Source of the DNA: Ruminococcus sp.
GTDB lineage: Bacteria > Bacillota > Clostridia > Oscillospirales > Ruminococcaceae
Direction: 5' to 3'
DNA length: 64,000 nt
NCBI GenBank assembly: GCA_029062165.1
Contig: JAIDQQ010000023.1
Span: 543,889-607,888, forward strand
The number at the start of each line of letters is the position of its first letter. The first letter of the stretch is position 1. A program made the position numbers and the translations under genes. The notes below the pieces were generated by a model that was given only the letters and a program-made list of their open reading frames with translations, was not told where the DNA came from and did no database searches. This document shows positions 28,241 to 39,034 of the stretch, piece after piece.

Positions 28241-28319
28241 CATTATCAATTAAGAATTAAGAATGCATAATGCATAATTATTTCAATTCTTAATTATGAA
28301 TTATTAATTATGAATTTCA
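28241..28319. repeat. AT-rich dispersed repeat
   Basis: About 80 nt of TTAATTCTTAATT, TGCATAATTATT and ATTATGAATT units lie between pnkp and the proline-rich gene. Confidence 0.8.
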
Positions 28320-30881
28320 AAGTCGTGGGTCAACAGGTTCGCTCTCGAATGCAAGTACACCGAATGAACATTCATGTACTTTATAAAGCGGTTCACGGTT
28401 TACGAAACGTTTCAGCGATTCCATACCTAACGAAAATTCTTTCAGGGCGAGGGTACGTTTTCTTGAAAGCGAACGTTTTTTCAGTCTCCGGAGGTGTTCC
28501 GGCAGAAGATAATCCGCACCATAAATAATCCTTAAATACTCACGTCCACGGCATTTGACAGCCGGTTGAAGAAGTTTGCTTCCGGTAATAGCCGTATAGT
28601 ATTCCGGTTTTACTACCATTCCTTCACCGCCCGATTCCGTCATTTCAGACCACCATTTCACAGCATTTTCAATGCTTGTTACGTCGTCGGTATCTACGCA
28701 TATATACGGCGTTGCCATGAAAATTTTATCCGTACAGATATACTTTCTTATATTCTCCATATGCCATATGTGTTTCTGCTTGTCGAAAACTTTTCCCTCA
28801 ACCGCAAGTATATGAAACGGTGCTATTCTGAAATCGTCGATATTATTGACCGTCCAGCAGTATTCACGATAGGCGGATACATATTTTTCAATGGCATCTT
28901 TCCGGAAACGGAATTTTTCAAGGACTTCTTTCAGATTGGTATTCTGTCCGGACGTAAGAGCGGAAACTTCCGGCGATACACTGGTAAGGGAGCAGGCTTT
29001 TTCAAGCAATTTTACCGCAGTATCAAGCGAATTTTTTCCGGCGTTTCCTACCGGTGCATACTGTGTTTTAATAAGTCCCTGTGCCTTTTCTGACCACGGC
29101 ATTAACTCTGTATCGAGGCATACCCATTCCGTATTGAAGTCTTTCCAGAAATTATTGTCTGTAAGTACCCTGTCAAGATGTTTAAGTAATTCCGTTTCAG
29201 TTTCCGGATTATCAAAGAAACGCCGTCCGGTACGGGTGTATATTATGCCGGAAGTGCCGTCATCTATGCCGAAACGTTTTACAGCAGTTTCCGGCGTATG
29301 ACATAATATTATAACCGCTCTCGAACCCATATGTTTCTTTTCGCATACGACGTTTTTTATACCGTTCTTACGATAATATTCAAAGGCTTCGGGTGGGTAT
29401 TCAAGATAACCGTCAGTCTGACTTGTCTCGCACGGCGACATTGTAGGCGGAAGATATATCAGCCAGTGAGGGTCAGCGGAATATCTCGACATTATTTCCA
29501 GTGCGGAATTTGCATTGTTTTCGTCGATATTTATTGACGGTATCAAATCTGTACGGATATTCATTTTCCCCTGAAAATCGCCTATTGTAAGCATATCGCC
29601 AATATCTTCGGATTTTTCAGTTGCAAGAGGTTTTACAGGTTCACAGTATTTTTCGTATGCCTCAACGCTTACGAACTCTTTTTCAGGGTATCGCATTGCC
29701 GTAAGTTTTCCGCCAAATACGCAACCGTTATCAATACAGTATGTGTTGTTTATCGCTGTCACGTCGGTACAGGGCGTATGACCGTATACTATAGTAGCAC
29801 GTCCTCTGTAGTCGGCTGACCAGTCAAGGCGTACTGGTAAACCGAACTCGTCGACTTCACCGGTAGTATCTCCGTATATACAGAACTCACGGACACGTCC
29901 TGAACCACGTCCGATATAATTTTCCTTTATTCCGGCGTGCGAAACAACAAGTTTTCCGTCGTCGAATACATAATGACTTATCAGACCGTCAAGAAATTTC
30001 CGGAGTTCCTCTTTAAATTCCGGAGTTTCTTTGTTTATTTCCTCAACGGTCTTGTCAAGTCCGTATGTGAGATTGACATTTTTTCCGTTAAGATATTTAA
30101 GTAATCTGACCTCATGATTTCCGACTACCGAAAATGCATTACCATTTTTAATCATACTCATAGCAAGTTTAAGTACACCGGTATTATTATAACCTCTGTC
30201 ACAGAAATCTCCCAAGAAAATAACACGTCTGCCGTCGGGGTGTACCGGTATACCGTCGGCGTTATCGATATAGCCTAATTTTTCAAGAAGTTCACGTAAT
30301 TCGCCGTAACAGCCGTGTATATCGCCTATAATATCGAATTTTCCGTGAACGTCTTTTTTGTCGTTCCAAAGTTTAGTACGGACTATTTCGGCATTGTCGA
30401 TATCTTCCTGATTGTTCAGGACGTACACAAACCGGAAACCTTCACGCTTTAATTTTTTAATACAGCGTCGTAACTGGTTTGAATGATTCCGGATTACACT
30501 TTCCGGAAGCCGTCTGTTTTCACGTGCGGAATTTCTTTCGAGTAAAGTTTTTTCCGGAACGTCGAGGACTATAGCTACACTATGTACGTTATTTTCCCTT
30601 GCATAATCAAGAATTTTTTTCCGTGCAGACTGCTGTACGTTTGTAGCGTCTATAACGGTCAGTTTCATTAAGTCGAGACGTTTTTTCAATGCATAGAAAA
30701 GTAAGTCGAAAGCCTCACCGGAAACACTCTGATTATTTTCGTCGTCGGAAACCATTGCCCTGAAAAAGTCGGAAGATAAAACTTCCGTAGGCTTGAATTT
30801 ACTGTTAGCAAATGTAGTTTTTCCGCTTGAAGTAGCACCAATCATGGCGACAAGTGAAAATTCCGGTATTTCTATACGCAT
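28317..30881 (-). CDS. pnkp: polynucleotide kinase-phosphatase-ligase of bacterial RNA repair
   Basis: Bacterial Pnkp (854 aa, normal length) heals and seals broken RNA. Residues about 1-175 are the 5'-kinase (P-loop GATSSGKTTF). Residues about 180-420 are the metallophosphatase that removes 2',3'-phosphates (DIIGDIHGCYGE, FLGDFCDRG, GNHEV, SHAG). Residues about 450-854 are the adenylyltransferase, with the lysine motif VCEKKHMGSRAVI and a late VVKPEYY motif. It overlaps the hen1 stop by 10 nt, and the two proteins form one complex. In characterised systems it repairs ribotoxin-cut tRNAs. The stop lies within the AT-rich repeat. Confidence 0.95.
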   Translation of the reverse strand: MRIEIPEFSLVAMIGATSSGKTTFANSKFKPTEVLSSDFFRAMVSDDENNQSVSGEAFDLLFYALKKRLDLMKLTVIDATNVQQSARKKILDYARENNVHSVAIVLDVPEKTLLERNSARENRRLPESVIRNHSNQLRRCIKKLKREGFRFVYVLNNQEDIDNAEIVRTKLWNDKKDVHGKFDIIGDIHGCYGELRELLEKLGYIDNADGIPVHPDGRRVIFLGDFCDRGYNNTGVLKLAMSMIKNGNAFSVVGNHEVRLLKYLNGKNVNLTYGLDKTVEEINKETPEFKEELRKFLDGLISHYVFDDGKLVVSHAGIKENYIGRGSGRVREFCIYGDTTGEVDEFGLPVRLDWSADYRGRATIVYGHTPCTDVTAINNTYCIDNGCVFGGKLTAMRYPEKEFVSVEAYEKYCEPVKPLATEKSEDIGDMLTIGDFQGKMNIRTDLIPSINIDENNANSALEIMSRYSADPHWLIYLPPTMSPCETSQTDGYLEYPPEAFEYYRKNGIKNVVCEKKHMGSRAVIILCHTPETAVKRFGIDDGTSGIIYTRTGRRFFDNPETETELLKHLDRVLTDNNFWKDFNTEWVCLDTELMPWSEKAQGLIKTQYAPVGNAGKNSLDTAVKLLEKACSLTSVSPEVSALTSGQNTNLKEVLEKFRFRKDAIEKYVSAYREYCWTVNNIDDFRIAPFHILAVEGKVFDKQKHIWHMENIRKYICTDKIFMATPYICVDTDDVTSIENAVKWWSEMTESGGEGMVVKPEYYTAITGSKLLQPAVKCRGREYLRIIYGADYLLPEHLRRLKKRSLSRKRTLALKEFSLGMESLKRFVNREPLYKVHECSFGVLAFESEPVDPRL

Positions 30882-32272
30882 TTCTTAAACACTCCCATCT
30901 GTGTAGGCGTACCGTGTAAGCCATCGTCATCGCCGATACCCGATATTGTCACGGTATAGCCGTATTTCTGACAGATATAATCCGTCCATTTCCTGAAATC
31001 CTCACGAGACCATTCAAAACGGTGGTCATTATGACGTAACTGCCCGTCCGGAATAAATTCGTAATTAATGTTATACTCCGTGTTAGGAGTGGTCAGGATT
31101 ACTGTAGCCGGTTTTGCAAACTCGAAAATATTTCTTTCAAATGCCGGAAGCCTTAAAGGTTCAATGTGTTCGATTACCTCAATCACGCAGGCACAGTCAT
31201 AACCGGAAAAACGTTTGTCTTTGTAGGTCAGCGACGACTGCATAAGTGTAAGTTTATTACGTCTGTGTTCGTTCATGGTATCGTAATGCAGACGGTTTTT
31301 AGCTTTTTCGAGTTCATGGGCGGAGACGTCAACAGCAGTTACTTTTTTAATCTGTTGTTGTTCGAGAAGAATTTTAGTCAGCCTACATTCTCCGCAACCT
31401 AAATCTATAACGCTTTCCGCACCGCTTGCGAGTACCGCATTTTTTACGGTCTCGAGACGTAACGCATTAAGGGATATTTTTCTTTCGTCAGCCGGTCTGT
31501 CAACCTGTTCTGATTCCTGTGTTTCGTCTGATTCCTGTGTTTCCGGTATTTCTTCTGTGAGCAGGTCAATAGTTCTGTGTGCGTAACTTCTTTTCATAAG
31601 GAAGTAACGGTAAATAATGTCATTTTTTGCGGGGTGTTCAGCTAACCACTCTCCGCCATGCGAAAGAAGTTTATCAATTTCCGCTTCGTCTATGTAGTAG
31701 TGTTTCTGCTTATCGAAAACCGGTATAAGCACGTATATATGATTGAGTAAATCGGATAATCTTACTTTACCGGAAATTTCAAGGTTTATATACGGACTTT
31801 CACCCCATTCAGTGAAATTATCATCGAGGATATTTTTTGAAGTCTTTACGGTATAGCCAAGCGGTTCAAAAATCTTACGTGCGAAACTATCTGTACCGTG
31901 AATAGAATATATATTCGCTGTAAGGTCAAGAGGTGTGCCGACAAGTTCCGGTTTCCTGTCGCATTTACCGTTCATGGCGGTATTGAAGATTCTTGTTATA
32001 GCGGTACTAAGAAAAGAACTCGCTGTATAAGGTCTGTCGTTGACGTAATCGAACAGTCCGCCGGTATTTGTACCCTGTTTGCCTTTTACGAGGTCAATAG
32101 GGTTTATGTCAAGAAGTAATGCCATAGTTGTCTTTTCGTCGGAAACTTCCGGATAGAACACATAAGCCATACCGGAATTTAATTCAAATTCCTGTGGTCT
32201 GTACGGATTCTTATGCAGAAGATAGCCTAAATCCTGTGTATTTCGTCCGGTGTAGGTGATTGTGAGAATCAA
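30872..32272 (-). CDS. hen1: Hen1 3'-terminal RNA 2'-O-methyltransferase
   Basis: This 466-aa protein partners Pnkp. The N-terminal half (about 1-240) binds and activates the Pnkp ligase. The C-terminal methyltransferase (about 265-466) has the SAM motif VIDLGCGECRL and the metal site EVIEHIEP with RHNDHRFEW. It methylates the repaired 3' end so the same toxin cannot cut again. The start is a TTG at 32272 (ILTITYTGRNTQDLGYLLHKNP), 8 nt after AAGGAG and in line with the family start. The GTG in the track overlaps the ribosome site. Between the halves lies a short acidic Glu/Gln-rich linker. Confidence 0.93.
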   Translation of the reverse strand: MILTITYTGRNTQDLGYLLHKNPYRPQEFELNSGMAYVFYPEVSDEKTTMALLLDINPIDLVKGKQGTNTGGLFDYVNDRPYTASSFLSTAITRIFNTAMNGKCDRKPELVGTPLDLTANIYSIHGTDSFARKIFEPLGYTVKTSKNILDDNFTEWGESPYINLEISGKVRLSDLLNHIYVLIPVFDKQKHYYIDEAEIDKLLSHGGEWLAEHPAKNDIIYRYFLMKRSYAHRTIDLLTEEIPETQESDETQESEQVDRPADERKISLNALRLETVKNAVLASGAESVIDLGCGECRLTKILLEQQQIKKVTAVDVSAHELEKAKNRLHYDTMNEHRRNKLTLMQSSLTYKDKRFSGYDCACVIEVIEHIEPLRLPAFERNIFEFAKPATVILTTPNTEYNINYEFIPDGQLRHNDHRFEWSREDFRKWTDYICQKYGYTVTISGIGDDDGLHGTPTQMGVFKKCV

Positions 32273-32318
32273 ATAATTCACTCCTTAAATAAAAAATTTC
32301 CTCCGTAGCTCATGTATC

Positions 32319-32387: not shown

Positions 32388-32416
32388 TTGACAAACCATG
32401 AAATAAGTGCTAAAAT
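32388..32416 (+). promoter_or_regulatory. promoter of kinase-like/PP2C operon
   Basis: TTGACA, 17 nt, TAAAAT, divergent from the hen1 promoter with 40 nt between the two -35 boxes. Confidence 0.8.
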
Positions 32417-32449: not shown

Positions 32450-33793
32450 ATGGCGGAGTATCTGACAAGAAAGAGAATTGAAACGGAGTTCGGAGGCATC
32501 GCCCAGATTAACGGCGTTATCGGCAAGGGCAGGCAAAGTATCGTTTACAGGGTTGAAACCAACACTCAGAAAAAAGCTCTCAAGTGGTACGATACCGACA
32601 AAATAAAAAATATTGAACAGATTCACGAAAATATCCGCCGGAACATCGTGGACGGCAAACCCGACAGGCGTTTTCTGTGGCCTGAATATACTACCATAAC
32701 TGACAATTCAACCGGTGCTTTCGGGTATTTCATGGAACTCCGGACAGATGATTTTGAATATTTTGCCGACGTGGTAAGGGGTTATAAATTCGTGATAAAT
32801 TCCGAAACTGGTAATCCGATTAAGAAAAAAGTACGTTTTTCAAGTCTCTATGCCATGATTACGACGGTCATAAATATTATTGATTCTTTCAGACAGATTA
32901 ACGCCTTAGGAAAAAGTTTTCAGGGACTTAGTGAGGGTAGTTTTTTCATAAATACAGATACTGGTGAAATACTCGTCAGCGACTGCGACACCATAGCACC
33001 ATACGGTACAGACCTTGATATAAAAATACGTTCAGAGTATAAAGCACCGGAAGTTATTATGGGAAAACTTCCTGACGAAAAATCCGATATGTATTCACTT
33101 GCACTGATACTTTTCAGACTTCTTTTCCGTGGTGACGCTTTTGAGGGTGAAAAGACTGTCATGGACGTTTGCCTTAATGAAAAGGAAATCGCAAAGCATT
33201 ACAGTACGGATGCGGTATTCATATATGACCCCGATAATAATTCCAACCGTGCTTTAAACGGTATTCACGATAATGTAATTAAATTCTGGAATGAATATCC
33301 GGAATATATTAAAGAGGCTTTTACATATTCTTTTACTGTAGGGATAAATAATCCCGAAAAGAGAATCCGTTTTGAAGAATGGCTTAATCTTTTTGTGCGT
33401 CTCCGTACCGAAATACTATGTTGTATGTGCGGAAAAAGCAGTTTTATTTCAATGAATGCAAGTCCGGAAGATGAGGTTTTTGTATGCCCTGTATGTAATC
33501 TGAAATACGCTTCCATGAAGTTCACAGACAGATTATACCGTATGCCCCTGTGTATAGGCGGTAAGATATTCGCCTGTGACCTTGACCCCTCAACAGATGA
33601 TTTACTTACAGTCGACGGTGAAATAGTGGAAAATAAAATACGTAAAGGTCTTATGGGTATAAAGAATCATTCACGAAAAAAATGGAGCGTTTTTCTGCCG
33701 GACGGTATGTATCATGATGTTGAATATAGTAAAGGTTTTCCTGTATGGCAGGGTTTAAAGATAGACTTCGGCAAGATAAAGGCAGAATTATAA
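32450..33793 (+). CDS. protein-kinase-like protein with zinc ribbon, probable pseudokinase
   Basis: This 447-aa soluble protein has a Hanks-type kinase fold (about 15-270). It keeps the nucleotide loop GKGRQSIVY, the Lys in KKALKWY, a DFG-like SDCDTI and the APE motif in YKAPEVI. The catalytic loop reads FQGLSEGSFFIN: the HRD Asp is Gly and the metal-binding Asn is Ser, so phosphotransfer is doubtful. A zinc ribbon (CCMCGKSS, then CPVCNLKY) follows, then a small C-terminal domain. The PP2C phosphatase gene comes next (27 nt gap), then TerD. Such kinase/PP2C/TerD sets belong to Ter-type stress systems. It may bind ATP and act as a sensor or scaffold. Confidence 0.8.
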   Translation: MAEYLTRKRIETEFGGIAQINGVIGKGRQSIVYRVETNTQKKALKWYDTDKIKNIEQIHENIRRNIVDGKPDRRFLWPEYTTITDNSTGAFGYFMELRTDDFEYFADVVRGYKFVINSETGNPIKKKVRFSSLYAMITTVINIIDSFRQINALGKSFQGLSEGSFFINTDTGEILVSDCDTIAPYGTDLDIKIRSEYKAPEVIMGKLPDEKSDMYSLALILFRLLFRGDAFEGEKTVMDVCLNEKEIAKHYSTDAVFIYDPDNNSNRALNGIHDNVIKFWNEYPEYIKEAFTYSFTVGINNPEKRIRFEEWLNLFVRLRTEILCCMCGKSSFISMNASPEDEVFVCPVCNLKYASMKFTDRLYRMPLCIGGKIFACDLDPSTDDLLTVDGEIVENKIRKGLMGIKNHSRKKWSVFLPDGMYHDVEYSKGFPVWQGLKIDFGKIKAEL

Positions 33794-33819: not shown

Positions 33820-34722
33820 ATGTTCAGTGGATTCAGCCGTTCGGTAATCGGTGCAAGCCATATCAAAAAAAATATAGTATGTCAGGACAGTTCCGGCTAT
33901 GAAGTACATGAAAAATATGCGGTAGCCGTTGTGGCGGACGGTCACGGCAGTAAGAAACATTTCCGTAGCAATATCGGTTCAGCCCTTGCAGTTGAATCGG
34001 CTATAGAAACTGTAAGGAATTTTTTCGCCGACTACGAAAGAATATTACGTGAACTTCCTGAAAATCACGAACTTATTCTTAAAAATATAGAAAAACAGGT
34101 AATAGCACGCTGGCACAGGAAAATAACGGAACATTTTTCTGAAAACCCTGTAACCGACGACGAAAAAAAACCTTTCACAGAAGAGGAGTTCAGTAAAATT
34201 CCTGTGGCTTCGTATTATGGTACTACTCTTGTTACGGCTGTGATAAGTGAGGATTTTTCATTAGGTTTCCAGATAGGCGACGGAACACTTGTCGCAGTAT
34301 TCGGTGACGGCGAAACGGTCATGATTATGGACTATGAAGAATCCAATCCGGCGAATATTACCGCATCTGTATGTAACAAAAACGCACAGTTACTTTTCAA
34401 TCATTTCTACAAGAACAAAAAGAAAATTCTTGCAATGTTCGTTTCCACGGATGGTTTATATACGTCTTTCGGAAGTGACTGTGATTTCCTTGACTATCAT
34501 ACTATAATTGCCGGTCAGCTTTACGATATTCAGGCTTTTGAATCTTCCGTAGTGAAGAATATTACCCGAAGAACTCATTTCGGTACTGAAGACGATATTT
34601 CACTTTCGTGTGTATATAATAAAGAACTCGCCTCGGAAAATATTGAAATTATCCGTCAGAAAATAGAGGAAAACAAAATTAATGCTTCTGCACGTAAAGT
34701 CCGTAAGTGTCCGGACTTATAA
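33820..34722 (+). CDS. PP2C-family Ser/Thr phosphatase
   Basis: This 300-aa phosphatase has metal-site motifs NIVCQDSSG, VADGHGS, GTTLVTAVI, IGDGTLVAVF, STDGLY and EDDISLSCVY, the order of PF13672-type PP2C. The track start overlaps the previous gene; the ATG at 33820 (MFSGFSRSVIG) follows AAAGAGGTG at good spacing and matches the family. With a kinase-like protein that seems inactive, the phosphatase may answer to a kinase elsewhere. The two may instead form a non-classical pair. A lysine-rich tail ends the protein. Confidence 0.88.
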   Translation: MFSGFSRSVIGASHIKKNIVCQDSSGYEVHEKYAVAVVADGHGSKKHFRSNIGSALAVESAIETVRNFFADYERILRELPENHELILKNIEKQVIARWHRKITEHFSENPVTDDEKKPFTEEEFSKIPVASYYGTTLVTAVISEDFSLGFQIGDGTLVAVFGDGETVMIMDYEESNPANITASVCNKNAQLLFNHFYKNKKKILAMFVSTDGLYTSFGSDCDFLDYHTIIAGQLYDIQAFESSVVKNITRRTHFGTEDDISLSCVYNKELASENIEIIRQKIEENKINASARKVRKCPDL

Positions 34723-34749: not shown

Positions 34750-35652
34750 ATGTATATAATGAAACTGATACCCTCTGTGAAGTCATATCTGTGGGGCGGT
34801 ACACGTCTTATACGTGATTACGGAAAAACCGGTGCGGAAATGATTTCTGAAACGTGGGAATGTTCCGTACACCCCGACGGTCTAAGCATAGTGGCAAACG
34901 GAAAATTTTCCGGAAAAACTCTTGCGGAAGTCCTGAAAGTACATCCGGAATATACCGGCACTGAAAATACTGGTACATTTCCGGTACTCGTCAAGCTGAT
35001 TGACGCTGAAAAAGATTTGTCCGTACAGGTACACCCTGATGACTTATACGCCGGTATTCACGAAAATCAGAAAGGCAAGTCGGAAATGTGGTACGTCCTC
35101 GACGCTGACGAAAATTCAGAAATAATATACGGTTTTGAGGAAAAAATATCTACCGAAACTGCACGTCATTCGGCTTACGACGGTAATATTACAAGTCTGC
35201 TACACAGGGAGCAGGTACACAAAGGCGATATTTTTTACATACCGGCAGGAACTGTCCACGCACTCGGTAAGGGAATAGTCGTTGCGGAAATTCAGGAAAA
35301 TTCCAATGTAACGTATCGTCTTGACGACTACGGTAGAACCGACGAGAACGGCAGATTACGTGAACTTCATATAGAAAAGGCTCTTGATGTCATGAATCTT
35401 TCACCGGTTGGGAAGTCCGGAACTGATTTAAATTTACCGTTTACGACGGAAATTGTAAACACTCATGAAAAATACGTCTTTCATATAAATAAAAAGTCAT
35501 TTGTCATACTGCTTTTCACTGACGGTACAGGAACTGTAAGAAATTTGTATAATTCCGTCGACGTGAAAAAAGGCGACTGTATTTTTATTCCGGCGGATTC
35601 CGGTATAACTGAAATATCCGGAAAAACCGACTTCCTTAAAATATCTACCTGA
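34750..35652 (+). CDS. manA: mannose-6-phosphate isomerase, class I
   Basis: ManA interconverts mannose-6-P and fructose-6-P. The 300-aa short form has the zinc motif QVHPDD, the Glu in KSEMWYVLDAD, PAGTVHALG and the substrate Arg in RLDDYGR. The first ATG (34750) is 9 nt after AAAGG. It is co-directional with the kinase-like and PP2C genes upstream, but a terminator follows it. It thus interrupts an otherwise Ter-type gene set; whether it has any link with that system or merely sits there is unclear. Confidence 0.93.
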   Translation: MYIMKLIPSVKSYLWGGTRLIRDYGKTGAEMISETWECSVHPDGLSIVANGKFSGKTLAEVLKVHPEYTGTENTGTFPVLVKLIDAEKDLSVQVHPDDLYAGIHENQKGKSEMWYVLDADENSEIIYGFEEKISTETARHSAYDGNITSLLHREQVHKGDIFYIPAGTVHALGKGIVVAEIQENSNVTYRLDDYGRTDENGRLRELHIEKALDVMNLSPVGKSGTDLNLPFTTEIVNTHEKYVFHINKKSFVILLFTDGTGTVRNLYNSVDVKKGDCIFIPADSGITEISGKTDFLKIST

Positions 35653-35666
35653 AAATATCTGTTATT

Positions 35667-35698
35667 ACTGCAAAAATATTTGTTTTTTGCAGTTTTTT
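35667..35698 (+). terminator. terminator after manA
   Basis: ACTGCAAAAA pairs with TTTTTGCAGT, followed by T6. Confidence 0.85.
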
Positions 35699-35706
35699 GT
35701 GTCTGA

Positions 35707-35735
35707 TTGACATTTCCGGTACATTATGATATAAT
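35707..35735 (+). promoter_or_regulatory. promoter of terD-AIM24
   Basis: TTGACA, 17 nt, TATAAT, just after the manA terminator. Confidence 0.85.
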
Positions 35736-35762: not shown

Positions 35763-36497
35763 ATGGGTTTTGATATACCAGTAAGAAAAGCTCCGCCGGT
35801 TGACAGGCAGTCACTTGCCGGAAAACAAGGTTTTATGAATATCCGGCAGAGTATCGACAGAAATAATCTTGATAATAAATGTTTCAGTAAGAAGCCTGTA
35901 CCGGTAAATGTACCTGCTCCGGTACAGGTACAGAAAAAACAACGTAATCTTCCGTCGGGAAAAGTTTTTCTGCAAAAAGGGCAGAAAATTCCGGTAGATT
36001 CTTCTTCAACTATAAAAATCGCTCTTGGCTGGGATATTCTCGATAACCGTTGCGAACTTGACGGCTCGGCTTTTATGTTGGGTGCGGACGGTAAAGTTTT
36101 AGGCGACGAATGGTTTATATTTTACGGTCAGAATGTAAGCCCCGATAAAAGTCTGAAATATAATTCCGGTGGGAATCCGGATAACGCCGTAATTGATATT
36201 GATTTCCGGAAAATAAATCCGGCTGTTGAAAAGATAGTCTTTTCCGTGACTATCTATGAAGCATACGAAAAAGGTCTTAATTTCGGCATGACCGAAAACG
36301 TATATTCACGTATCACAGACGGTACGGACAATGAATTATTCCGTTTTCAGCTTGACGAATGTTACAGTAACGTCACAGCTATGGTACTCGGTGAATTATA
36401 TCGTTATAAAGGCAACTGGAAATTCAATGCGGTAGGTTCAGGAGTGGCGAGGGATTTGGCTGGATTCTGTGCAATGTACGGTGTAAATCTCATATGA
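35763..36497 (+). CDS. terD: TerD-family stress protein with flexible N-terminus
   Basis: This 244-aa protein has about 75 flexible residues, then a TerD domain: FLQKGQKIPVD, IALGWDILD, FMLGADGKVLGDEWFIFYGQ. The Ca2+-associated ending DNELFRFQLDECYSN and ALVLGELYRYKGNWKF-like strand follow. TerD proteins bind Ca2+ and act in tellurite, colicin and phage-linked stress through an unclear mechanism. AGGAGGTG precedes the ATG. It forms a two-gene unit with AIM24 and lies near the PP2C and kinase-like genes. No TerC or TerB is in the window. Confidence 0.9.
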   Translation: MGFDIPVRKAPPVDRQSLAGKQGFMNIRQSIDRNNLDNKCFSKKPVPVNVPAPVQVQKKQRNLPSGKVFLQKGQKIPVDSSSTIKIALGWDILDNRCELDGSAFMLGADGKVLGDEWFIFYGQNVSPDKSLKYNSGGNPDNAVIDIDFRKINPAVEKIVFSVTIYEAYEKGLNFGMTENVYSRITDGTDNELFRFQLDECYSNVTAMVLGELYRYKGNWKFNAVGSGVARDLAGFCAMYGVNLI

Positions 36498-36510: not shown

Positions 36511-37257
36511 ATGATAAAATTTGAAACTCTCAACGAATTAAGTTTAATGGTTACGTGCGAAAACGGAGCAGGTGAATATATTTTCACAAAAGCCGGTGCA
36601 TTTATCGGTGGCGAATGTTTCGGGGCGAAAAATTTCAAGTTCACTAAGGTTATGTTAGGTCCGCAGGAAAATGTAGGACGTGCTATACTCGGACAGATTG
36701 CAAGACGTTTTACCGGTGAAAATTTACCGCTTATGAAAGTGGAATTTAGTGGTGACAGTATAACATACTATGCCAACGAACAACAACACGTTGTTGTGTA
36801 TAAACTTGACTATGGCGAAACTATTTCCGTAGAAAGCGAAAATATACTTGCTTTCACACGTAGTTGCGATTACGGCGTGCGTTTCCTCGGACAAGGTGTC
36901 ATATCGCAGAAAGGTGTAGCTACTTCCACGCTTACCGGCAGGGGCAATGACGCCTATGTTGCGGTACTCGTCGACGGCAACCCGCTTGTATTGAGTAACG
37001 TACATAACGGCTCTACCCTTGAGGCTGACCCCGACGCTGTTGTATGCTGGGTAGGTGCTGACCCCTCCATAACTCTTGACGTTTCATGGCGTAACTTTAT
37101 CGGACAGAGTTCCGGAGAATCATATATGTTTGAATGGCATTCCGGAGCGACGGCGACTGTAATAATACAGCCTACCGAAAGAACTTCCGGTATTGATATT
37201 TCTATGGACGGTTCACGTTCCGGAAATAAACCGTCCAGACAGAGAAGACTTTATTAA
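36511..37257 (+). CDS. AIM24-family beta-sheet protein
   Basis: This 248-aa soluble all-beta protein matches the AIM24/TRAP-like family (VGRAILGQIARRFTGENLPLMKVEFSG, then ISVESENILAFT and FLGQGVISQKG). The biochemical role of the family is not settled; members occur with TerD and PspA-type envelope-stress genes. It follows terD by 13 nt with AAAGGA before its ATG, so it is co-transcribed. The C-terminal tail is basic (KPSRQRRLY). No terminator is obvious in the 93 nt before the sigma-factor gene. Confidence 0.85.
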   Translation: MIKFETLNELSLMVTCENGAGEYIFTKAGAFIGGECFGAKNFKFTKVMLGPQENVGRAILGQIARRFTGENLPLMKVEFSGDSITYYANEQQHVVVYKLDYGETISVESENILAFTRSCDYGVRFLGQGVISQKGVATSTLTGRGNDAYVAVLVDGNPLVLSNVHNGSTLEADPDAVVCWVGADPSITLDVSWRNFIGQSSGESYMFEWHSGATATVIIQPTERTSGIDISMDGSRSGNKPSRQRRLY

Positions 37258-37350: not shown

Positions 37351-37905
37351 ATGGATAATGGTGCAGTCAGTTACCGACGCTTCCTTGACGGCGACGACGA
37401 AGGAATGGTTGAAATTATCCGTGATTATAAAGACGGTCTTATACTTTATCTCAACGGCATAACCGGAAACATACTGCTTGCGGAAGAAATCATGGAAGAT
37501 ACTTTTTTTAAACTCGTTGTCAGGAAACCTAAATTTTCCGGAAGAAGTTCTTTCAAGACGTGGCTTTATGCTATCGGAAGAAATTCCGCTATTGAAAGTC
37601 TCCGGAAGAGGTCACGTTTTTCGGACAAGTCTTTTGACGAATATACAGACCTCGCTGACGAACTTTCCATAGAAAAGGAATATCTTATAGAAGAACAGAA
37701 AATAGCACTCCACAGGGCTTTACAGAAACTCAACCCTGATTACAGGCAGGTACTTTATCTTGTCTTCTTTGAGAATTTCAGTAACGCCGAAACGGCAAAA
37801 ATCATGCACAGAACAAGGCGACAGGTGGAAAATCTTCTTTACAGAGCAAAACAGTCACTTAAATCAGAGCTTGAAAAGGAGGGTTTTGAATATGAAGTCA
37901 TATAA
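37351..37905 (+). CDS. ECF-type sigma factor
   Basis: This 184-aa sigma-70-family protein has region 2 (EEIMEDTFFKLVVRKPKFSGRSSFKTWLYAIGRN) and region 4 (LNPDYRQVLYLVFFENFSNAETAKIMHRTRRQVENLLYRAKQ). The length fits an extracytoplasmic-function sigma factor. GAAAGGGGG precedes the ATG. Its last 14 nt overlap the next gene, a single-pass membrane protein, the arrangement of sigma/anti-sigma pairs. A CGTC motif (37309) in the gap upstream hints at autoregulation, but I cannot fix a matching -35. Confidence 0.9.
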   Translation: MDNGAVSYRRFLDGDDEGMVEIIRDYKDGLILYLNGITGNILLAEEIMEDTFFKLVVRKPKFSGRSSFKTWLYAIGRNSAIESLRKRSRFSDKSFDEYTDLADELSIEKEYLIEEQKIALHRALQKLNPDYRQVLYLVFFENFSNAETAKIMHRTRRQVENLLYRAKQSLKSELEKEGFEYEVI

Positions 37906-39034
37906 AGAAGTCGCAGACAGCATTTTTGAACGTCGTGACAGGTATCTTGCTGAAAAGAAACGTAAGCAGACTATTATACGCCGGAATGTTACCATAGGTT
38001 TGAGTTTCTGTTTTGCCATACTCGCCTTTATAGGTGTATGGAAAAATGAAGAAATACGAGAAGCATTTCGGTCATACAGTCAGAAACCGTCGACTGAAAT
38101 AATTATCGACACTCCTGAACCTGCAACTACTGATATTATCACAACTTCCTTACATACTACCGTACCGGTTACTACCGCCGGAAAAAATAATACAGTCACT
38201 AAGGTTACGGAAATAACGTCGGATGATATTCAGACCGATATTACTGAAACAGTATTGGTAACAACTTTACAGGATTTACCGGAAATCATTACGGAAAGTA
38301 CTGTTTCTTCCGCCATTTATACGGAAAGTTCCGTATATAATCCGCCGGAAACAACCATACCAACGGTCATCACAACTGATACAGTACCGATTACTACGGT
38401 AAACAATACGGAAGTTTTTACCGCTACCACTACCACAGGTAATTTAATCACCGCAACCGCAACACATCATACTTCGGATACGGTTACAAGGACTACCACC
38501 ACCACCACTACAACACGACGTACTATAGCTACAAGACCAACTACTAATATAACAACTACTACAACTACTACTTCGGAAAAGATTGATACTACTGTAACAA
38601 CACGTATCACACACATTACCACCACAACACCACCCTTACGGACTACTACCACTACTACACGCCGTCCTATATGGACTACAACTACAACTACAACTACAGT
38701 TTTATGGACTACTACAACTACAACTACTGCTTTATTGACTGATACAACAACATCAGACTATATTATATGGACGTCAACGACTACTGACTTTCCTTTCTGG
38801 ACGACTACTACAACAACTACCACAGATGACACTACTTCTGAAACAACAGCTACAACTACATCTGACTTTACAATTATAGAAACGTCCACCACCGCTACAA
38901 CCACTACTACTACCACCACGGAAGAAGAAACTACAACTACTATAACAATCAGTACGGATTACGAAGAATATGAAATTACTACAACTACTACTGCAATGCC
39001 TTTACCGCCGGAAGAAGATTCAGATTTTTCTTGA
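37892..39034 (+). CDS. putative membrane anti-sigma factor with long Thr-rich exterior
   Basis: This 380-aa protein has a basic cytoplasmic head (about 1-30), one membrane helix (about 32-50) and an extracellular part of over 300 residues. The outer part is low-complexity Thr with runs of up to eight. Near its end the unit IWTTTTTT or FWTTTTTT recurs about four times, then it closes with an acidic tail. Start at 37892 (MKSYKEVADS) follows AAGGAGGG and overlaps the sigma gene by 14 nt. The layout recalls RsgI-type anti-sigma factors of cellulolytic clostridia, but with no visible carbohydrate-binding domain. The Thr tract resembles the cellulase linker and is probably O-glycosylated or wall-spanning. 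Anti-sigma function is inferred from context. Confidence 0.72.
   Translation: MKSYKEVADSIFERRDRYLAEKKRKQTIIRRNVTIGLSFCFAILAFIGVWKNEEIREAFRSYSQKPSTEIIIDTPEPATTDIITTSLHTTVPVTTAGKNNTVTKVTEITSDDIQTDITETVLVTTLQDLPEIITESTVSSAIYTESSVYNPPETTIPTVITTDTVPITTVNNTEVFTATTTTGNLITATATHHTSDTVTRTTTTTTTTRRTIATRPTTNITTTTTTTSEKIDTTVTTRITHITTTTPPLRTTTTTTRRPIWTTTTTTTTVLWTTTTTTTALLTDTTTSDYIIWTSTTTDFPFWTTTTTTTTDDTTSETTATTTSDFTIIETSTTATTTTTTTTEEETTTTITISTDYEEYEITTTTTAMPLPPEEDSDFS

Follow-up and report, generated by a model that had tools for sequence, protein, structure and literature searches.

A predicted pseudokinase related to the TerY-P triad kinase adjoins an intact PP2C phosphatase gene in Ruminococcus

Sequence comparison of a 64,000-nucleotide stretch of a Ruminococcus genome (here called the window) identified a predicted pseudokinase that is a paralogue of the TerY-P triad kinase, lacks the catalytic Asp in all its orthologues and is directly followed by a PP2C phosphatase gene with intact catalytic motifs. 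The original TerY-P paper is reportedly that of Anantharaman, 2012. According to the available part of PMC11090510, the triad consists of a Ser/Thr kinase with a zinc ribbon, a TerY-like vWA protein and a PP2C phosphatase. We tentatively favour the reading that the pseudokinase binds a nucleotide (or, via its cysteine cluster, a metal) and may serve as a non-catalytic regulatory or targeting partner of the adjacent PP2C, a pair that would remove phosphates.

A degenerate active site in a conserved kinase fold

The open reading frame begins with an ATG preceded by a ribosome-binding-like site (AAAGGGG); its features and neighbours are compiled in Table 1. Pfam Pkinase matched the C-lobe of the protein (E 7e-8; 32.6 bits, cut-off 31.7), and the PDB matches of its AlphaFold2 model (pLDDT 81.5, pTM 0.84; residues 228-277 unreliable) are protein kinases such as PknB and CaMKII. 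At the position of the kinase consensus DxxxxN, the protein reads QGLSEGS.

Table 1 Features of the pseudokinase gene and its surroundings in the window
Feature	Position	Strand	Basis
Promoter of the pseudokinase unit, TTGACA-17-TAAAAT	32388..32416	+	11/12 matches, extended TG
Pseudokinase ORF, 447 aa: kinase fold, cysteine cluster, C-terminal beta domain	32450-33793	+	Pfam, AlphaFold2, alignment
Gly-rich loop, residues 24-32 (IGKGRQSIV; GKGRQS 25-30), third Gly to Ser	32519..32545	+	alignment
Lys45, beta3 ATP lysine	32582..32584	+	invariant: 11/11 orthologues, 84/84 clade A rows
Degenerate catalytic loop GLSEGS, residues 159-164 (D to G, N to S)	32924..32941	+	alignment
Asp178, DFG-position Asp, within DCD	32981..32983	+	invariant: 11/11 orthologues, 84/84 clade A rows
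Zinc-ribbon-like cysteines C325, C327, C346, C349	33422..33496	+	invariant in pseudokinase clade and clade A
PP2C phosphatase, catalytic Asp motifs intact	33820..34722	+	PP2C_2 E 2e-33
Type I phosphomannose-isomerase-like protein, last gene of the unit	34750..35652	+	PMI_typeI_cat E 2e-16
Terminator-like hairpin 3' of the unit	35667..35693	+	10 pairs and T run
TerD-AIM24 promoter, TTGACA-17-TATAAT	35707..35735	+	12/12 matches
TerD protein without the GDNxTGxGDGDDE loop, neighbouring unit	35763..36497	+	TerD E 1e-51, loop comparison
AIM24 protein, neighbouring unit	36511..37257	+	AIM24 E 9e-18

Orthologues were surveyed in 125 Ruminococcus genomes, and 12 of these, the window's included, carry the pseudokinase (60-100% identity, species-level genomes). 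For the residue comparison, 11 orthologues were aligned with 84 rows from clade A, the large ordinary group of the family, a few of which represent one locus fetched twice. As originally predicted, the catalytic Asp is missing: the HRD Asp is absent from all orthologues (Gly in 7, Ala in 4 of the aligned sequences), which places the protein within the sequence definition of a pseudokinase, namely that at least one of the VAIK Lys, HRD Asp and DFG Asp is lacking. The expected retention of the nucleotide Lys, the DFG-like Asp and the APE motif (residues 199-201) likewise held throughout the alignment, as Lys45, Asp178 and the APE Glu are invariant in 11/11 orthologues, together with the four cysteines. 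In 11/11 aligned orthologues, Ser stands in place of the third Gly of the Gly-rich loop, and Lys in place of the Met of YMAPE (GYMAPE to xYKAPE). The catalytic loop itself varies (GLSEGS, GLGEGS, GLDDGS or ALSDGG), and a further genome with a 96% identical protein has the same GLSEGS. Every aligned orthologue differs at 32 of the 241 positions that are conserved to at least 95% in clade A. The Gly and catalytic loops and the activation segment together contain 43 of the 241 and account for 12 of the changes, against 20 among the remaining 198 (hypergeometric p 0.004, common descent uncorrected).

Two further expectations stood in part. The metal-binding Asn is indeed absent, but this is not distinctive: the corresponding residue is Gly in 84/84 ordinary clade A paralogues, so that the missing Asn says little about the pseudokinase and only the missing Asp sets it apart. 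On the question of whether active relatives carry the same residues with compensating acids, the answer is a partial yes for the Asn, which the ordinary paralogues lack too, and no for the Asp, which is kept by ordinary paralogues and by homologues outside Ruminococcus. A zinc ribbon had been placed at the C-terminus. The four invariant cysteines are present, but their cluster spans residues 325-349 and is followed by a beta-rich domain of about 98 aa, and it is therefore not at the very C-terminus. Pfam zinc-ribbon models did not match the window pseudokinase, nor did a Pfam search match the C-terminal domain. The position of the alphaC Glu aligns with Asn65 across the kinase family of the genus, Asp-bearing members included. 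As the whole family is atypical in this respect, textbook kinase rules may fail here.

Pairwise dN/dS values of the pseudokinase were 0.08-0.15 for pairs with computable dS (0.09 against the 96% identical genome) and those of the ordinary copy 0.03-0.07; several dS values exceed 1 and are rough. The low range shows purifying selection and marks the pseudokinase gene as functional. A sequencing error was ruled out by the lack of the Asp in 11/11 orthologues and by the identical GLSEGS loop in the 96% identical genome, and a pseudogene by the orthologues and the dN/dS values. An ordinary, Asp-bearing triad kinase copy is present in 11 of the 12 pseudokinase genomes, the exception being a genome that is 75% complete.

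The PP2C gene and the neighbouring transcription units

The PP2C gene starts 26 nt 3' of the pseudokinase gene. The phosphatase had been noted next door in the window; it directly follows the pseudokinase in every orthologous locus, and its DS, DGHG, GDG, TDG and EDD motifs are retained in 11/11 of them. The vWA gene was found in 0/11 orthologous loci, in contrast to 68/68 ordinary loci with downstream sequence, where the order is kinase, vWA and then PP2C wherever the contig extends far enough. The 12 closest PP2Cs belong to the very 12 genomes that carry the pseudokinase, and those placed on a tree form one clade (SH-aLRT 100).

The gene for the phosphomannose-isomerase-like protein is the third of the unit and is conserved across orthologous loci. 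A block similar to the promoter (TTGACAAA..TAnAATAt) lies 5' of the pseudokinase gene in 8/8 other loci inspected, and the TerD-AIM24 promoter occurs in 8/9 loci inspected, the window counted. The promoter scan by itself yielded 14 sites versus 13.8 expected, and the case for the promoters therefore rests on their conservation across loci. Hairpins comparable to that 3' of the unit recur in other orthologous loci as well. We take the pseudokinase, PP2C and phosphomannose-isomerase-like genes to form one predicted unit, with TerD and AIM24 in a separate putative transcription unit. A single operon including TerD was ruled out by the terminator-like hairpin and the perfect promoter in between, both recurring in other loci.

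TerD and AIM24 follow the unit in 10/10 loci with enough sequence, and the fetched flanks of ordinary loci contained no TerD match. The GDNxTGxGDGDDE loop is kept in the five other TerD genes of the genome and in the solved TerD structure 2kxt; it is also absent from the orthologues of the window TerD and from the other AIM24-linked TerDs of the genus, and the loop-less TerD with AIM24 therefore looks like a separate subfamily at the sequence level. The loop-less pair also occurs unlinked, in genomes of the genus without this pseudokinase, which weakens the idea that the degenerate kinase and the degenerate TerD arose in one event.

Further afield, the RNA-repair genes Pnkp and Hen1 (28317-32281) are divergent from the pseudokinase gene and are replaced by another RNA-repair gene, RlaP, at orthologous loci L081, L082 and L087; Pnkp/Hen1 or RlaP is found at 7/10 orthologous loci with upstream sequence. 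A Sigma-70-family (ECF-type) sigma factor gene is conserved 3' of AIM24; in the window, an ORF very rich in threonine comes next (37351-39034 region). A record titled Alistipes senegalensis contains Ruminococcus-type loci (contigs L080 and L144), and its title is probably wrong. PADLOC returned weak matches to the kinase domain only, on which we base no claim of an anti-phage system, and an Rfam search gave no matches.

Family history and repeated loss of the catalytic Asp

The outer group of homologues has the loop YQDLN[DN]GN with both Asp and Asn, and in the ordinary clade A it reads YQDLNDGG, with the Asp kept and the Asn changed to Gly. Homologues in other families of the phylum (L179/L201 and L181/L202) have kept both residues and adjoin vWA and PP2C genes. 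Because these homologues retain both, Asp and Asn look ancestral, and loss of the Asn, in the ordinary group, seems to have preceded that of the Asp.

Kinase copies without the Asp were detected in seven more genomes beyond the lineage of the window. Three of them (L035, 5974-7329; L036; L164) have the loop YLDDGG or YLDDNG and a Gly in place of the DFG Asp. The DFG Asp is also absent from L163 (YLNDGA) and from L167, whose loop is wholly changed, and it is kept in L176 and L177 (NLSDGG and YLSDGG). The vWA gene is retained beside these copies wherever downstream sequence exists. A second, Asp-bearing copy was read as sequence in 6/7 of these genomes and is only listed for the seventh (G076).

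A first kinase tree joined all Asp-less kinases (SH-aLRT 88); a single origin was rejected when addition of the ordinary relative L178 caused L176 and L177 to group with the latter (97). A kinase tree from which the motif columns were omitted requires at least two Asp losses and at least two changes of the DFG Asp; the branches of L163 and L167 are long, and the number of Asp losses is best read as a lower bound. Separate origins agree with the PP2C tree. An AU test marginally rejected one clade of Asp-less kinases (p 0.049) and clearly rejected one clade of the matching PP2Cs (p 0.002; p 0.14 without L177). These results suggest that the catalytic Asp has been lost at least twice in the kinase family.

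Possible roles and relation to known systems

Several lines of evidence support a role as partner of the PP2C. None of the 11 aligned orthologues has the Asp, and all of them keep Lys45 and Asp178; an intact PP2C always adjoins, the vWA gene is lost, dN/dS is low and an ordinary copy is co-present in 11 of 12 genomes; and the clade-specific changes cluster in the Gly and catalytic loops and in the activation segment. In the course of events that we propose, the triad kinase would have been duplicated; in the copy that became the pseudokinase, the catalytic Asp, some of the Gly loop and the usual sequence of the activation segment would then have disappeared, and the vWA partner would have dropped out of its lineage. 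Left in place through this divergence are the Lys of the nucleotide pocket, the Asp at the DFG position, the cysteines and the C-terminal domain. The protein may thus bind a nucleotide, or a metal through its cysteines, without transferring phosphate, and may regulate or target the PP2C by physical contact, the pair removing phosphates that were probably set by the cell's own Asp-bearing triad kinase if the two share substrates. On the other side, the lost third Gly could weaken ATP binding, and the PP2C pairing could be mere inheritance, as ordinary triads carry a PP2C too. The original idea of an ATP-binding sensor rather than a kinase is supported in part, by the pseudokinase sequence, the retained pocket residues and the constant PP2C neighbour; ATP binding and sensing would be conjectural functions, and so would a tie to TerD, since TerD-AIM24 has a promoter of its own and occurs unlinked elsewhere in the genus. 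A broader extension, which is possible but which we hold with considerable doubt, is that TerY-P kinases of Ruminococcus repeatedly become dedicated non-catalytic PP2C partners, so that a phospho-switch of three parts is reduced to a phosphatase arm working against the complete triad of that cell, with the window lineage having gone furthest by discarding the vWA.

Alternatively, a dead kinase with the docking surfaces of its paralogue might dampen the Asp-bearing triad by tying up the latter's substrate, vWA partner or metal or ligand signal, with the PP2C being secondary. The coexistence with an ordinary copy in nearly all pseudokinase genomes and the conservation, in both paralogues, of the cysteines, the C-terminal domain and a large part of the C-lobe fit such a competitor, but the activation segment and P+1 region, where substrate docking would be expected, are altered clade-wide (GYMAPE to xYKAPE), and the PP2C accompanies the pseudokinase in all cases; we regard this role as unlikely.

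Still less probable to us is a different ATP-using transferase, SelO-like (AMPylation) or SidJ-like (glutamylation), which would need the residues of the ATP and metal sites and not the ordinary HRD Asp. The invariance of Lys45 and Asp178 next to a freely varying catalytic Asp position would be expected of such an enzyme, and SelO and SidJ are given as pseudokinases with new activities in the available part of PMC12599244. However, the SelO motif (Hgvmntdn in the same part of PMC12599244) retains the Asn that the pseudokinase lacks, the third Gly of the latter is lost, and its loop varies with no new invariant charged residue as a replacement.

About as improbable, and if anything slightly more so, is a protein kinase of low activity in which Glu162/Asp162 or Asp180 substitutes for the catalytic Asp. 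An acid is found three positions on in every member (SEG/GEG/SDG/DDG), the alphaC Glu is atypical family-wide, and ordinary clade A members manage without the Asn. But the Asp-bearing paralogues (DLNDG) have an acid at this position too, so the loop acid is no compensation, and a compensating acid was ruled out on this ground; moreover, homologues outside the genus retain both Asp and Asn. A decaying, functionless copy that lost its catalytic residues after duplication is very hard to reconcile with a reading frame that stays open across 12 species-level genomes (60-100% identity), a dN/dS of about 0.1 and a conserved promoter and gene order, and we consider it extremely improbable.

A search of the open-access literature, which covers few subscription papers, turned up no account of a pseudokinase derived from TerY-P, and bacterial pseudokinases are described as mostly unexplored experimentally in the available part of PMC12599244. 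One genus here holds active-type, intermediate and full pseudokinase paralogues, mostly in the same genomes, beside an intact phosphatase. Such a series therefore offers a clean test of what a pseudokinase does for a phosphatase and of the role of the vWA protein in TerY-P systems.

YegI, PphC and YegL of E. coli form a trio of kinase-like, PP2C and vWA proteins. A Yersinia Yegi1 member is listed as a pseudokinase (loop Hsdlsykn, DVD) in the available part of PMC12599244; its pattern, with the loop Asp and Asn present and the Lys missing, is opposite to that of the window pseudokinase. The bacterial families named there are ActPs1-3, GLW, CP1, DYD, DLHK and Yegi1. All but the last resemble our protein in combining a bacterial Ser/Thr kinase fold with a degenerate catalytic motif, but the descriptions of ActPs1-3, CP1, DYD and DLHK in this part of PMC12599244 do not appear to fit it. 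In GLW pseudokinases, as described there, a GLW motif replaces HRD, the ATP Lys is lost and a transmembrane segment is present; the window pseudokinase, with its GLSEGS loop and invariant Lys45, falls outside this definition. EssB/YukC, SelO and SidJ are likewise kinase folds without ordinary kinase activity, but they have other motifs, and no PP2C pairing is described for them in the available part of PMC12599244, the main text of which does not mention Ruminococcus, PP2C, zinc or vWA. The closest likeness is to TerY-P itself, a triad already known: the kinase is homologous, the cysteine cluster lies in the same place, a PP2C adjoins, a TerD gene is nearby, and elsewhere in the same genome the genes for the ordinary kinase paralogue, vWA and PP2C stand side by side. 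The pseudokinase locus differs from it in having no vWA gene, a kinase without the catalytic Asp (Gly or Ala in 11/11) and TerD-AIM24 as a separate unit, and this Asp-less, vWA-less variant appears to fit none of the families as described in the available part of PMC12599244.
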